Shown here: positions 1,617 through 4,658 of the stretch, in pieces
Position numbering within the stretch: the first letter of the stretch is position 1
How the letters are laid out: every line of letters begins with the position of its first letter
DNA from: Thermoanaerobaculia bacterium
GTDB lineage: Bacteria; Acidobacteriota; Thermoanaerobaculia; Multivoradales; UBA5704
Assembly: GCA_025937035.1 (NCBI GenBank)
Contig: JAICSG010000017.1
Location: forward strand, 1-16,009
Length of the DNA stretch: 16,009 bases
Direction of reading: 5' to 3'
Translations under genes and position numbers: made by a program
Notes under the pieces: generated by a model
The model's database searches: none
Seen by the model: the letters and a program-made list of their open reading frames with translations, nothing else
What the model was told of the DNA's origin: nothing

Positions 1617-3160
1617 GAGCCCCGATCTTCCTGAAGTCTTTCGGCCTGCTCCTGGCGCTCGCCTCCGCGGGCCTGGCCCAGGCTCCGGCCGCGAAAGCCC
1701 CGGCCGCGAAGAAGGCCGCGGCCCCGCCCGCCGCCGCCAAGGCGATGGCCAGGCCGTCCACGCCGGCCACGCCGCCGCCGCCGGCTCCGGCCAAGGAGAT
1801 CCGCTTCCCCGCCTTCCAGGAGAAGACGCTGGCCAATGGATTGCGGCTGGTGGTGATCGAGCAGCACGAGCAGCCGCTCGTCTCGCTGCGCATGACGCTC
1901 AACGCCGGCAAGGCCTACGAGCCGGAGGGCAAGGCCGGGCTGGCCAACGCCACGGCCGCCCTGCTCACCAAGGGCACGGCCACCCGCTCGGCCCAGCAGA
2001 TCGCCCAGGCTATCGACTTCGTGGGCGGCCATCTCGACGCCAACGCCGGGACCGAGGCGGGCTACGTGGACCTGTCGGTCACCTCGGACCAGCTCGATCT
2101 CGGGTTCGGCCTCCTCTCGGACGTGGTCCTCCATCCGGCCTTTCCGCAGGAGGAGCTCGAGCGCTGGCGCCGGCAGGCCGTGAACGGGCTCCAGATCGAT
2201 CAACAGGACGCCTCCTACGTGGCCACCACCGCGGTGACGCGGCTGATCTTCGGCGACTACCCCTATGGCCGGCCGGGCAGCGGCACTCCCGGGTCGCTCG
2301 CCGGGCTGACGCGGGACGACTTGGTGGCGTTCCACAAGCAGCACTTCATTCCCAACCAGACGATCCTGGCGGTCGTGGGGGACGTCAAGCCGGCCGATGC
2401 CTTCGCCCGCGCCGAGCGCGCCTTCGGCTCCTGGCCCAAGGGGACCCCCAGCGAGCTCCCCCGATTCGACGTGAAGGCTCCCGCCAAAACCCGGATCGTG
2501 GTGATCGACAAGCCCGACGCCGTGCAGACCGAGATCCGCCTCGGCCAGGTGGGGATCGCCTACCGCGATCCTTCGCTGTTCGCGGCCGAGGTCTACAACT
2601 CCATCCTCGGCGGCAATGCCAGCTCCCGGCTCTACGAGGAGATCCGGCGCAAGCGGGGCCTGTCGTACGGCGCCAGCAGCTACTTCCTGGAGGAGACGAA
2701 TCCGGGCTTCTTCGAGGCCTCGACCTTCACCAAGACCGAGAGCACGGCCGACGCCCTTGGGCTCGCCTTCGAGGTCCTGCGCGGACTGCAGGAGAAGCCA
2801 GTGCCGGAGGCGGAGCTCAGCTTCGCCAAGACCTACATCACCGGCGCCTTCCCGCTGGAGATCGAGACCGCCAACGGCATCGCCACCAAGGTGCTGGAGG
2901 CCATGCACTTCGGCTACGGCCGGGAGTTCCTGGAGAGCTACGACGACCGGATCTCCAAGGTGAGCGCGGCCGACGTCCAGCGCTTCGCCGAGACCCATGT
3001 CCACCCCGGCCAGATGACCGCCGTGCTGGTGGGCAACGCCTCGGCCTTCACGGACGCCCTGAAGAAGAAGTACGGGGAGGTCGAGGTGATCCCGATCGCC
3101 GACGTCGACTTCCTGCGGCCGGACCTGCGCAAGCCGCAACAGCCCAAAGCCAAGGGCTGA
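1613..3160 (+). CDS. Secreted M16 family peptidase-like protein, non-catalytic partner chain
   Basis: This 515-residue M16 homologue overlaps the upstream peptidase gene by four bases. Residues 1-22 form a signal peptide (cleavage near GLAQA), followed by an Ala/Pro/Lys-rich linker to about residue 62. Aligned with its neighbour, the HxxEH site is replaced by NATAA (residues 112-116, in GLANATAALLTKG), so it cannot bind zinc in the usual way. It does keep the substrate-binding motif of the C-terminal M16 domain (RRKRGLSYGASSYF, residues 345-358, with Y352). This is the division of labour known from two-chain M16B enzymes such as mitochondrial processing peptidase and bacterial heterodimers: one chain has zinc and the other has R/Y. 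An obligate heterodimer is therefore the best inference. A hairpin follows about 12 bases after the stop. The fold is certain, the partnership likely and the substrate unknown. Confidence 0.9.
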   Translation: MRAPIFLKSFGLLLALASAGLAQAPAAKAPAAKKAAAPPAAAKAMARPSTPATPPPPAPAKEIRFPAFQEKTLANGLRLVVIEQHEQPLVSLRMTLNAGKAYEPEGKAGLANATAALLTKGTATRSAQQIAQAIDFVGGHLDANAGTEAGYVDLSVTSDQLDLGFGLLSDVVLHPAFPQEELERWRRQAVNGLQIDQQDASYVATTAVTRLIFGDYPYGRPGSGTPGSLAGLTRDDLVAFHKQHFIPNQTILAVVGDVKPADAFARAERAFGSWPKGTPSELPRFDVKAPAKTRIVVIDKPDAVQTEIRLGQVGIAYRDPSLFAAEVYNSILGGNASSRLYEEIRRKRGLSYGASSYFLEETNPGFFEASTFTKTESTADALGLAFEVLRGLQEKPVPEAELSFAKTYITGAFPLEIETANGIATKVLEAMHFGYGREFLESYDDRISKVSAADVQRFAETHVHPGQMTAVLVGNASAFTDALKKKYGEVEVIPIADVDFLRPDLRKPQQPKAKG

Positions 3161-3171
3161 CCCGGACGAGA

Positions 3172-3194
3172 GCCGGGCGGGTCCGACGCCCGGC
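3172..3194 (+). terminator. Likely terminator after the M16 peptidase pair
   Basis: A perfect 8-bp stem pairs GCCGGGCG (3172-3179) with CGCCCGGC (3187-3194) across a 7-base loop. Pyrimidine-rich sequence with short T runs follows (CTCTTT, then GTTTTTCTTC by 3220). The T tract is interrupted and not immediate, so efficiency is uncertain. The position, directly between an operon and an independent promoter, supports the call. Confidence 0.5.
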
Positions 3195-3236
3195 CGGCCT
3201 CTTTCCCCGCGTTTTTCTTCGCTCCTCCCGTCAAGA

Positions 3237-3252
3237 TGGCACCCTCATTGCA
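3237..3252 (+). promoter_or_regulatory. Sigma-54-type (-24/-12) promoter, first LPxTG-like gene
   Basis: TGGCACCCTCATTGCA matches the sigma-54 consensus TGGCACG-N4-TTGCW at all key positions. The GG (3238-3239) and GC (3250-3251) dinucleotides are in the invariant spacing. Transcription should start near 3263, leaving a leader of about 84 nt before the ATG at 3347. Sigma-54 promoters need an AAA+ enhancer-binding activator, and none is encoded in the window. A sister site with the same spacing precedes the next, related gene, which makes chance a poor explanation. Confidence 0.75.
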
Positions 3253-3275
3253 GCAAAAAATGGAGAATAGTTGGG

Positions 3276-3305
3276 GGGGACATCCCCGCCGGAAGCTCCC
3301 TCCGG
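3276..3305 (+). other. Two small hairpins in the 5' leader of the first LPxTG-like gene
   Basis: Within the predicted leader, GGGG (3276-3279) can pair with CCCC (3284-3287). CCGGA (3289-3293) can pair with TCCGG (3301-3305). Both are short and lie upstream of the ribosome binding site AAAGGAGG (3332-3339). They may only stabilise the mRNA. Confidence 0.3.
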
Positions 3306-3346
3306 GGGAATTGCTCTCGAGGAATGACCGCAAAGGAGGAACAGCG

Positions 3347-4027
3347 ATGAAAAGGCAGATCTTCTCGCTCACGATGGCTCTCGCGCTCACCATGGGGACC
3401 GCGCTGCTGGCCCAGTCGGGCGGCGGCAGCGGCGGCGGAGCCAACAGCGGCTCGGTGGGCACCGGCTCCGGCGCCACCGGCACGACCGGCGCCGGCTCGA
3501 CCGGCAGCTCGATGGACCAGACCGGCACGACCGGCACCACCACCGGCACGATGAACAACACGGGCTCGACGACGACCGGGACCAACAACCAGACCGGCAC
3601 GACCACGACCGGCACGATGAATCAGCCCGGGAGCACGACCGGCACCACGACCGGGACGACCACTGGCACCACCACCGGAACCACCACGGGCACCACGACC
3701 GGGACCAACACCAACACCTATAACGGCGCGGGCTCGACCACCGGCACCGGCACGACCGGCACCACCACCGGCACTTACACCGGCACCACCGGCTCGACCA
3801 CCGGGACCTACAACGGCACGACCGGCAGCGCCACCGGCGCCGGCACCGCCTACGGCACCTCCGGCACAACCGACACGACCACCGGCATGAACGACACCAC
3901 CGGCACGGGCACCGGCGTATCCGGTACGCGCCGCCACCTGCCGGGGACCGGCAGCGACATGCCGCTCGTCGGCCTGCTCGGCGCCCTCTCGCTGGCCGGC
4001 GCTCTCGGCCTGCGGAAGCTCCAGTAA
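3347..4027 (+). CDS. Exported Thr/Gly repeat protein with LPxTG-like C-terminal anchor signal
   Basis: I do not recognise a named family. The start at 3347 is chosen over an upstream in-frame start because AAAGGAGG sits 7 bases before it and a signal peptide follows at once (MKRQIFSLTMALALTMGTALLAQ). The upstream start would also lie inside the sigma-54 promoter. The 226-residue product has three parts. Residues 1-23 are the signal peptide. Residues about 24-194 are low-complexity sequence made of T, G, S, N and a few Y/D/Q, dominated by TGT and TTGT units. Residues 198-226 are LPGTG followed by a hydrophobic helix and the tail RKLQ, which has the architecture of a sortase sorting signal. The Thr-rich body would suit an extended, possibly O-glycosylated stalk, but that is inference. 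The tail matches that of the next gene at 26 of 29 residues. A strong terminator follows, so it is probably transcribed alone from its sigma-54 promoter. Confidence 0.8.
   Translation: MKRQIFSLTMALALTMGTALLAQSGGGSGGGANSGSVGTGSGATGTTGAGSTGSSMDQTGTTGTTTGTMNNTGSTTTGTNNQTGTTTTGTMNQPGSTTGTTTGTTTGTTTGTTTGTTTGTNTNTYNGAGSTTGTGTTGTTTGTYTGTTGSTTGTYNGTTGSATGAGTAYGTSGTTDTTTGMNDTTGTGTGVSGTRRHLPGTGSDMPLVGLLGALSLAGALGLRKLQ
3434..3916 (+). repeat. Degenerate in-frame ACC-GGC-ACS tandem repeats coding TGT/TTGT
   Basis: Much of the body of the first LPxTG-like gene is built from 9- to 12-base units around ACCGGCACG and ACCACCGGC. The most regular block, about 3634-3700, encodes successive TTGT units. Synonymous third-base differences (ACC/ACG/ACT, GGC/GGG/GGA) show that the repeats are old enough to have diverged silently while the amino-acid pattern was kept. 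Repeat copy number is likely to vary between strains. Confidence 0.8.
3938..4024 (+). other. C-terminal LPGTG-hydrophobic-RKLQ sorting-signal-like module
   Basis: This codes for the last 29 residues of the first Thr/Gly protein: LPGTG, then SDMP, then about 16 hydrophobic or small residues, then RKLQ. The order of motif, membrane span and positive tail is that recognised by sortases. The module is nearly identical to 4569-4655, although the bodies of the two proteins differ. Confidence 0.65.
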
Positions 4028-4051
4028 GCGCGGATCGCCTTCCGATCCGGA

Positions 4052-4077
4052 AAAGGGGCCCGCTCGCGGGCTCCTTT
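4052..4077 (+). terminator. Rho-independent terminator after the first LPxTG-like gene
   Basis: AAAGGGGCCCG (4052-4062) pairs with CGGGCTCCTTT (4067-4077). This gives an 11-bp stem with one G-T wobble and a CTCG tetraloop, and CTCTTTAT follows. It lies 24 bases after the stop codon and ends only 8 bases before the next sigma-54 promoter. Confidence 0.75.
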
Positions 4078-4084
4078 CTCTTTA

Positions 4085-4100
4085 TGGCATCAGCGTTGCA
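4085..4100 (+). promoter_or_regulatory. Sigma-54-type (-24/-12) promoter, second LPxTG-like gene
   Basis: TGGCATCAGCGTTGCA keeps the GG (4086-4087) and GC (4098-4099) with consensus spacing. It differs from the canonical TGGCAC only in the last base of the -24 box. Transcription would start near 4111, giving a leader of about 53 nt before 4164. The similarity to 3237-3252 extends into the spacing and A-rich sequence just downstream, as expected for duplicated genes under one regulator. Confidence 0.7.
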
Positions 4101-4115
4101 GAAACTGAAGAGCAC

Positions 4116-4142
4116 CAGGGATAGTCCCTGCGCTTCAGGGAT
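4116..4142 (+). promoter_or_regulatory. Leader hairpin with alternative pairing, second LPxTG-like gene
   Basis: CAGGGA (4116-4121) pairs with TCCCTG (4125-4130) around a TAG loop. A second copy of CAGGGAT at 4136-4142 can compete for the same TCCCTG. The element lies in the predicted leader, 9 bases ahead of the ribosome binding site GGAGGAG (4151-4157). A translational switch is possible but unproven. Confidence 0.35.
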
Positions 4143-4163
4143 TCACAACAGGAGGAGATCGAG

Positions 4164-4658
4164 ATGAAACGACAGATCCTGGCGCTCTGGGTGGTCCTCA
4201 TCCTCGCGGCATGCGCGGCTCTGATGGCCCAGTCCACCACTCCCAACACCCAGGTCCCCCCCAGCCAGCAGGTCGACCAGTCGGGCCAGCCCGAGCACGC
4301 CGGCCGTCCGGACGTGGACGTCGACGTCGGCAAGAACGCCAAGAACGGCGTCCTGAACGTGGACGTCAAGCGCCACGGGGATTCCGATACCAAGGCCGGC
4401 AACAACCCGAATGGCAACCGGACCACCACCACGACGGGTACCACCGGCACCTACACCGGCACCACCACCTCCACAGGCGCGTCGACGGCCACCACCACCC
4501 GGCACACCCGGCACGCGGCCACGCACGTGCGTCATCGGATGCACCACGCCGCCTCCAAGCACCACCGCCTGCCGAAGACGGGGAGCGACATGCCGCTCGC
4601 CGGGCTGCTCGGCGCCCTCTCTCTGGCCGGTGCTCTCGCTCTGCGGAAGCTCCAGTAG
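4164..4658 (+). CDS. Exported small protein with LPKTG C-terminal anchor signal
   Basis: This 164-residue paralogue of the preceding gene starts at an ATG 6 bases after GGAGGAG. The signal peptide MKRQILALWVVLILAAC opens with the same MKRQI as its neighbour. LAAC at residues 14-17 also fits a lipobox, so it could be a lipoprotein with C17 as the anchor. Ordinary cleavage near ALMA-Q is the alternative suggested by the paralogue. The body (about 25-130) is not repetitive like its sister. It has an acidic VDVDVGKNAKNGVLNVDV segment (about residues 51-69), a short Thr-rich stretch (about 92-110), then a His/Arg-rich patch (about 111-134). Residues 136-164 are LPKTG, a hydrophobic helix and RKLQ. 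LPKTG is a canonical sortase substrate motif. No sortase is in the window. The family is not recognised. The shared start, tail and promoter type point to common regulation and location. Confidence 0.8.
   Translation: MKRQILALWVVLILAACAALMAQSTTPNTQVPPSQQVDQSGQPEHAGRPDVDVDVGKNAKNGVLNVDVKRHGDSDTKAGNNPNGNRTTTTTGTTGTYTGTTTSTGASTATTTRHTRHAATHVRHRMHHAASKHHRLPKTGSDMPLAGLLGALSLAGALALRKLQ
4569..4655 (+). other. C-terminal LPKTG-hydrophobic-RKLQ sorting-signal-like module
   Basis: This codes for the last 29 residues of the second exported protein. Compared with 3938-4024 only three residues differ (G to K in the LPxTG, V to A, G to A). The hydrophobic stretch and RKLQ end are otherwise unchanged. Confidence 0.7.

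Follow-up and report, generated by a model that had tools for sequence, protein, structure and literature searches.

The window analyzed here, 16,009 nucleotides (nt) of an uncultured Thermoanaerobaculia soil bacterium (contig JAICSG010000017.1, our contig C355), raises the question of how two proteins with LPxTG-type C-terminal sorting signals would be handled in a cell with an outer membrane. The contig belongs to a 5.69-Mb metagenome-assembled genome (MAG) that is 93.75% complete and 4.01% contaminated. The first gene, T1 (3347..4027, + strand), encodes 226 amino acids (aa) comprising a signal peptide, a Thr/Gly-rich stretch and an LPGTGS tail. The second, T2 (4164..4658, + strand), encodes 164 aa with a signal peptide, a conserved segment, a Thr/Gly- and His-rich linker and an LPKTGS tail. 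An earlier note on this DNA had left two alternatives: either the lineage possesses a sortase acting in the periplasm, or the tail is a distinct C-terminal (CTERM) signal that resembles LPxTG. From sequence and genome comparisons, T1 and T2 very likely belong to a set of three substrates dedicated to a class D-like sortase whose gene lies elsewhere in this genome.

The sorting signal of T1 (3938..4024, + strand) is composed of LPGTG-SDMP, a hydrophobic helix and RKLQ, while that of T2 (4569..4655, + strand) begins with LPKTG-SDMP and continues in the same manner. The two tails had been described as near-identical, and indeed 26 of 29 residues agree, as do 77 of 87 nucleotides. Since five of the codon differences are synonymous and three are non-synonymous, the tail pair is not merely a fresh DNA copy. 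The earlier note had also suggested that a tail profile be run against the whole genome. Such a profile, built from the same three tails that it matched, identified three copies with E ≤ 2.3e-17, followed by a next match at E = 1.4; the tail is thus not limited to the two proteins of the window, as the genome holds a third copy in a protein referred to below as T3. By inspection, T1 and T2 (LPxTG) and T3 (LPxTA) all fit the sortase-substrate architecture that had been proposed, with a motif, a hydrophobic helix, a basic end and secretion. The T2 tail scores above the cut-offs of both TIGR01167 and PF00746. Among 20 otherwise differing tails, no variation is seen at the P, T, S and P of LPxT[AG]S-x-x-P; the first P and the T are partly demanded by the pattern with which the tails were picked, the S and the second P are not. 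Of 95 tail proteins of full length, 92 have a signal peptide as judged by a simple rule.

The possibility that T2 is a lipoprotein anchored at both ends, with LAAC serving as a lipobox, was considered and rejected: 25 of the 28 aligned family members lack a Cys at this position. A lipobox pattern (either of two) occurs in 7 of the 92 tail proteins with a signal peptide, several of them with a hydrophobic run after the Cys. Five tails in open reading frames (ORFs) cut by contig ends were omitted from this count, and the three proteins without a recognizable signal peptide are included in the 95 and not in the 92.

A search of the genome for a sortase, recommended as a check, identified a single PF04203 match above the cut-off (contig C1160, E = 2.1e-33). 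The protein is 226 aa in length and scores 116.8 bits versus a cut-off of 26.6; the only further match in the genome has E = 0.94. Among the control genomes, PF04203 at E ≤ 0.001 matched only Bacillus, Corynebacterium and Lactococcus. The sortase passes NF058671, the model of the class D, LPxTATN-specific SrtD (144.9 versus 140 bits), along with the general model TIGR01076, and does not reach the cut-off of the class GN model TIGR03784 (98.3 versus 158.25 bits). The solved structure nearest to it by sequence is 2ln7. Judged by these comparisons, the enzyme appears closest to class D. All 16 sortases of the bacterial class that were compared keep His148, Cys205 and Arg217, and the same three residues are found in 26 of 26 members of a second set. 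A relative from the congener G089 was modeled (pLDDT = 85, pTM = 0.75) with a helix at residues 10–59 followed by strands. When this model was searched with Foldseek, the top match was 4d70, a sortase D, and the best 50 matches were all sortases; class C pilin sortases were among the nearest folds. From the N-terminal membrane helix and the family, it follows that the sortase would act in the periplasm of this diderm. Close relatives of the enzyme are already annotated as 'class D sortase [Thermoanaerobaculia bacterium]' in public databases, where an LPXTG annotation of some relatives also exists. Those of the 120 listed sortase homologues that bear an organism name are all Thermoanaerobaculia, Acidobacteria or Acidobacteriota.

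The diderm nature of the cell, which the earlier note had read from a tonB-like gene, is borne out by a TonB_C domain in the window and by LptD (3.4e-17) and three Omp85-type proteins above cut-off in the genome. In the controls, LptD matched only in E. coli and Caulobacter. Since the Omp85 control matched Sulfolobus too, LptD is the better diderm marker.

The third substrate, T3 (L001 474-1118, 214 aa), lies directly 5' of the sortase gene with a gap of 73 nt. Its layout is MKRQI...AQS...TTGTTTGT... with the C-terminus LPKTASDLPTVALAGLLALIAAFGIRFYSKRNA. Thus T3 has MKRQI, AQS and Thr/Gly repeats in common with the window genes, as well as a sigma-54-type site that is described below. In the gap between T3 and the sortase (L001 1119-1191) there is a strong hairpin of 13 pairs (-35.6 kcal/mol, z = -4.9), perhaps an attenuator; expression of the sortase may therefore be lower than that of T3. 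The two congeners searched, G089 and G090, both hold a sortase and a tail. In a comparison of the window with the T1-relative locus of G090, only T1 and T2 of the eight window proteins were matched, both at that one gene.

The pairing of tail and sortase was then followed through the class and the phylum with a tail profile (A2) of 20 rows, three from this genome and 17 from sortase loci of the class, with the candidate L036 left out. At most 53 first-look tail candidates were scored per genome in the class and at most 26 in the phylum, so that tails may be undercounted in both. Within the class, a PF04203 sortase is present in 66 of 148 genomes and a tail (E ≤ 0.01) in 57 of 148. With the tail threshold at E ≤ 1e-4, 44 genomes have both, two the tail only (G096 and G140), 22 the sortase only and 80 neither. 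After removal of the 18 genomes that were sources of the profile, these counts become 26, 2, 22 and 80 (Fisher p = 4e-12, a value that overstates independence since the genomes are related). At E ≤ 0.01 the corresponding full counts are 49, 8, 17 and 74. Of the 70 tail matches in the class with E ≤ 5.4e-5, 47 have a sortase domain no more than 2 kb away; the other 23, T1 and T2 included, have none that close. The phylum sample of 297 genomes gave the same picture: a sortase in 59, a tail (E ≤ 1e-3) in 40, both in 39, the tail alone in one, the sortase alone in 20 and neither in 237. The lone tail without a sortase, in G321, is a weak match inside a 3114-aa frame. Fisher p is 1e-32, or 2e-28 without six training genomes, and is subject to the same overstatement among related genomes. 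With a PF04203 gene beside the third substrate in a diderm genome and this co-occurrence in class and phylum, the first of the two alternatives, that the lineage has a sortase, is supported.

A scan of GTDB genomes confirmed at least 538 related stretches, the best 80 of which were kept as loci. These 80 loci are not 80 genomes, as some genomes give two, and L076 and L077 are apparently the same contigs of G089 and G090 that had gone into the profile. By record title, 78 of these best 80 are acidobacterial, one is from Myxococcota and one from Deltaproteobacteria. A protein with the C-terminal tail (profile E ≤ 0.05) was found in 68 of the 80 loci, within 2.9 kb and always on the strand of the sortase. 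With VWA proteins recognized by motif, the order is substrate-VWA-sortase in 40 loci, substrate adjoining sortase in 16 and another order in 12, with the remaining 12 having no tail; a looser look at those 12 found LPQTAS or LPKTSG tails in three. The VWA proteins of two loci that were examined match TIGR03436 (acidobact_VWFA) and end without a tail.

Two other kinds of sortase neighbor were observed at these loci. A frequent neighbor outside the class, seen at L079, L132 and many other named loci, is a secreted protein (..WNKKTxVTFSGPVEVPG..) about 240 aa in length; three examples were scanned and contained no Pfam domain above cut-off. In the Myxococcota and Deltaproteobacteria MAGs (L137 800-1093 and L142 3644-3934), the neighbor is a Pro/Glu-rich protein, about 97 aa long, that has a lipobox-like Cys where its signal peptide ends and carries an LPKTAS tail. 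By analogy with Braun's lipoprotein, these peptides could possibly tether the outer membrane to peptidoglycan, being linked in this case by a sortase.

A search for homologues of T2 gave 175 matches at E ≤ 0.001, T2 included, and an alignment was made of 28 members, T2 and 27 others picked from the 120 matches listed. In these 28 sequences an N-terminal PPSQQVDQSGxPE...PDVDVD...NGV is kept, the middle is variable and Thr/Gly-rich, and the tail is kept in 28 of 28 with P, T and S invariant and either G or A at the fifth position of the motif. As a result, LPxTG and LPxTA look like one signal. Such an alternation would explain how one enzyme could serve LPGTG, LPKTG and LPKTA. The conserved segment of T2 (4257..4397, + strand), which reads PPSQQVDQSGxPE..PDVDVDxGKNAxNGVLNVDVKR..DxDTKA across the 28 sequences, has no match above cut-off in Pfam or NCBIfam. 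Several T2 relatives are labeled 'cobalamin biosynthesis Mg chelatase CobN' by one source, a label that is probably wrong.

The tail genes of this genus also share a sigma-54-type promoter-like site. The site of T1 is TGGCAC-N5-TTGCA (3237..3252, + strand, 94 nt from the start codon) and that of T2 is TGGCAT-N5-TTGCA (4085..4100, + strand, 63 nt from the start codon); both fit a -24 GG and a -12 GC element with 10 nt between them. In a scan of the window allowing up to one mismatch, these two were the only matches, with 0.17 expected. The exact pattern has five matches in the 5.69-Mb genome versus one for the reversed control. Each of the three tail genes has one of the five in front of it, that of T3 at 164 nt; the T1 and T2 sites served as the template for the pattern and so are not independent matches, and the T3 site was seen beforehand. 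The genome encodes RpoN (2.5e-65). The upstream sequence was long enough for scoring in 93 tail genes; 12 of them reach 10 or 11 out of 11, compared to 0.3% of shuffles that permute two-base blocks. Within the genus, six of the six tail genes found score at least 10, with those of T3 and G089 being orthologues. The T1 site and its counterpart in G090 share 19 identical nucleotides between diverged flanks, and the sites of T3 and G089 share 17, with the last ~60 nt before the start codon also kept.

This T3 leader (L071 1957-2015) is identical in the two species over its last ~60 nt and diverges further upstream except at the sigma-54-type site; it is possibly a regulatory leader RNA. A fourth exact site (L158 1501-1516, - strand, listed together with 1759-2481, - strand; contig C789) has on one side a polysaccharide export gene that resembles TIGR03027 (145 bits versus a cut-off of 180) and on the other an ORF without family matches. 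The fifth (L160 1379-1394; contig C1193) is 23 nt 5' of a MoxR ATPase gene that is followed by a DUF58 gene. Since the reversed control also has one match, these two non-tail sites may be due to chance.

The pathway that these observations suggest may be considered in five steps. The substrate genes would probably be turned on by sigma-54 RNA polymerase and an activator, as the conserved sites indicate. The proteins would then be exported by Sec across the inner membrane, with the signal peptide removed at A^Q, and be retained there by the C-terminal helix and basic end. The sortase would cut LPxT|G or LPxT|A and join the Thr to an amine. For the enzyme-substrate pairing behind these predicted middle steps of export, retention and cleavage, the genome comparisons and the architecture of the proteins make a strong case. 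As the final acceptor, we lean with some reserve, and by analogy with class D enzymes of bacilli, towards the meso-diaminopimelate amine of lipid II, which would yield peptidoglycan-bound Thr/Gly-rich stalks. The purpose is likely to be organization of the envelope or extracellular matrix, on the analogy of RpoN-dependent PEP-CTERM proteins. A more complete scheme may be put forward tentatively, in which diderm Acidobacteriota of this lineage have a sigma-54-switched pathway that runs parallel to PEP-CTERM/exosortase and depends on an enzyme unrelated to the exosortase. Stalks rich in Thr and Gly, and possibly glycosylated, would be attached to peptidoglycan by a class D-like sortase in the periplasm, or passed to the surface, to hold exopolysaccharide to the cell when RpoN calls.

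Several observations weigh against this interpretation. T1 has no match to TIGR01167 or PF00746, and T3 is just under the cut-off of TIGR01167 (15.7 versus 15.9 bits) with no match to PF00746. The sortase scores below the cut-off of the broad class D model NF033746 (133.9 versus 165 bits), and it resides on a different contig from the window in a MAG with 4% contamination. Of the 66 class genomes with a sortase, 17 (tail at E ≤ 0.01) to 22 (tail at E ≤ 1e-4) have no tail match, and the same holds for 20 of the 59 in the phylum sample; some of these gaps are due to missed variants such as LPKTSG. Conversely, 8 of the 82 class genomes without a sortase have a tail match at E ≤ 0.01, mostly a weak one. 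With respect to regulation, the sigma-54-type site is uncommon outside the genus (a score of at least 10 in 6 of 87 tail genes), and a 10-mer search 5' of five tail genes identified no common activator-binding motif, performing no better than shuffles.

Other explanations of the tails were weighed against the same data. On its own, the architecture would fit a bitopic membrane protein, and cleavage is a prediction from sequence; the tail could then be a plain, uncut membrane anchor with an accidental likeness to LPxTG. We regard this as improbable, given that P, T, S and P are invariant in 20 tails that otherwise differ and that tails are rare where the sortase is absent (2 of 82 class genomes at E ≤ 1e-4 and 1 of 238 phylum genomes at E ≤ 1e-3, with the looser class figure given above). 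Another enzyme might instead process the tail as a CTERM signal, and the exosortase search that had been recommended did identify a candidate, exosortase K (TIGR04287, 110.4 bits versus 55; L072 1303-1986, - strand, contig C645). This gene is directly behind that of a VWA protein (1983-3305, - strand) which resembles TIGR03788 (under cut-off) and has its own VPEP-type tail, VPEPELPVLI...RMRMRTRRASR; exosortase K was rejected as the enzyme for the T1 and T2 tails on this basis. From its sequence features, the pair is taken as a second, separate C-terminal sorting system of the same genome. The T1 and T2 tails do not belong to PEP-CTERM, as they lack PEP and pair with PF04203, and the LPxT[AG]S tails co-occur with PF04203 and are mostly encoded close to it. 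An enzyme of this other kind is therefore very improbable, and the distinct CTERM signal offered as the second alternative of the earlier note is not supported, although rhombosortase was not searched for and exosortase K was not traced across genomes.

The 4% contamination of the MAG could be taken to mean that binning had wrongly brought in the sortase contig from a monoderm and that the genome has no cognate enzyme. The features that T3, beside the sortase, shares with the window genes, the sortase and tail in both congeners and the acidobacterial names among the listed homologues render this exceedingly improbable. A more serious alternative concerns the outcome of the reaction. In other classes there are sortases that polymerise pilins, and the nearest folds to the G089 model include those of class C pilin sortases; the outer membrane also leaves the final location of the proteins open. 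The sortase might accordingly polymerise its substrates into a pilus-like structure, link them to other proteins or release them hydrolytically for export in place of anchoring to peptidoglycan. This is considered unlikely, as the best matches by family model, sequence and fold are all class D enzymes. In addition, the predicted mature T1 (41% Thr, 27% Gly) has no Cys and no Lys, and the lack of Lys means that T1 cannot be a lysine-linked homopolymer.

Compared to known systems, the anchoring pathway proposed for T1 to T3 most resembles that of the class D sortases of bacilli and clostridia in the model passed, the nearest sequence and the top fold. As described in PMC3208642, the class D enzyme of a Bacillus species acts on LPNTA proteins, a signal that resembles the LPKTA of this lineage, and the sorted proteins are bound to m-DAP. 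In contrast to those systems, the host here is a diderm, the substrates are rich in Thr and Gly, the fifth position varies between G and A inside a single protein family, and sigma-54-type sites are found upstream in the genus. The class GN sortase type of marine proteobacteria described in PMC3237569 (TIGR03784, with the VWA target TIGR03788) shares with the present case a Gram-negative cell, an adjoining substrate gene and a VWA protein in the cassette; however, the sortase here scores well under that model, and the VWA gene stands between substrate and sortase in half of the loci and encodes, where examined, a TIGR03436 protein without a tail. The PEP-CTERM/exosortase system is similar with regard to diderm hosts, Thr/Ser-rich secreted proteins and a tail of motif, helix and basic end. 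According to a portion of PMC1569441, PEP-CTERM genes of Proteobacteria also have the same kind of sigma-54 site at a similar distance, a mean of 71 nt from the start codon. The differences are that the enzyme here is unrelated, the tails have no PEP motif, and the best genome match to PrsR, the PEP-CTERM regulator, is under the cut-off (403.8 versus 502.6 bits). In Aquincola, as given in an excerpt of PMC9850573, pepA depends on RpoN1 and its overexpression in an rpoN1 mutant lowers soluble exopolysaccharide.

A passage of a 2020 work on bacterial phylogeny (PMC7203096) describes sortases as unknown in any strictly negibacterial phylum, and a passage from 2006 (PMC1586193) places sortases outside Gram-positives only in one proteobacterial group and a Chloroflexus protein. 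Among the titles and abstract openings listed in searches of open-licence papers, no treatment of the sortases of Acidobacteria was found. To judge from these searches, four things are new: the pairing throughout the phylum, the cassette of substrate, VWA protein and sortase, the alternation of G and A in one substrate family and the sigma-54-type sites. With a sortase in 59 of 297 sampled Acidobacteriota and a recognizable tail in 39 of those 59, the role under an outer membrane of a sortase, an enzyme ordinarily linked to bacteria with a single membrane, becomes a testable question. If the sigma-54 control is real, exosortase and sortase, two unrelated C-terminal sorting systems of diderms, would have converged on the same regulator, and this convergence would point to a common role in the extracellular matrix.

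Some remaining features of the two window genes were read from the sequence. T1 most likely starts at 3347, preceded by the ribosome-binding site AAAGGAGG (3332..3339, + strand), and not at the ATG at 3236 given in the mechanical ORF list; that upstream ATG overlaps with the promoter-like site. The ribosome-binding site of T2 is AGGAGG (4150..4155, + strand). A terminator-like hairpin is present 3' of T1 (4052..4077, + strand), in a region that has two such sites versus 1.3 expected by chance. T1 and T2 both start with MKRQI, and their signal peptides are probably cleaved at A^Q. The predicted Sec signal peptide of T1 (3347..3412, + strand) is 22 aa long and ends in ALLA^QS, and AQ recurs at the same place in T2 relatives and in many other tail proteins.

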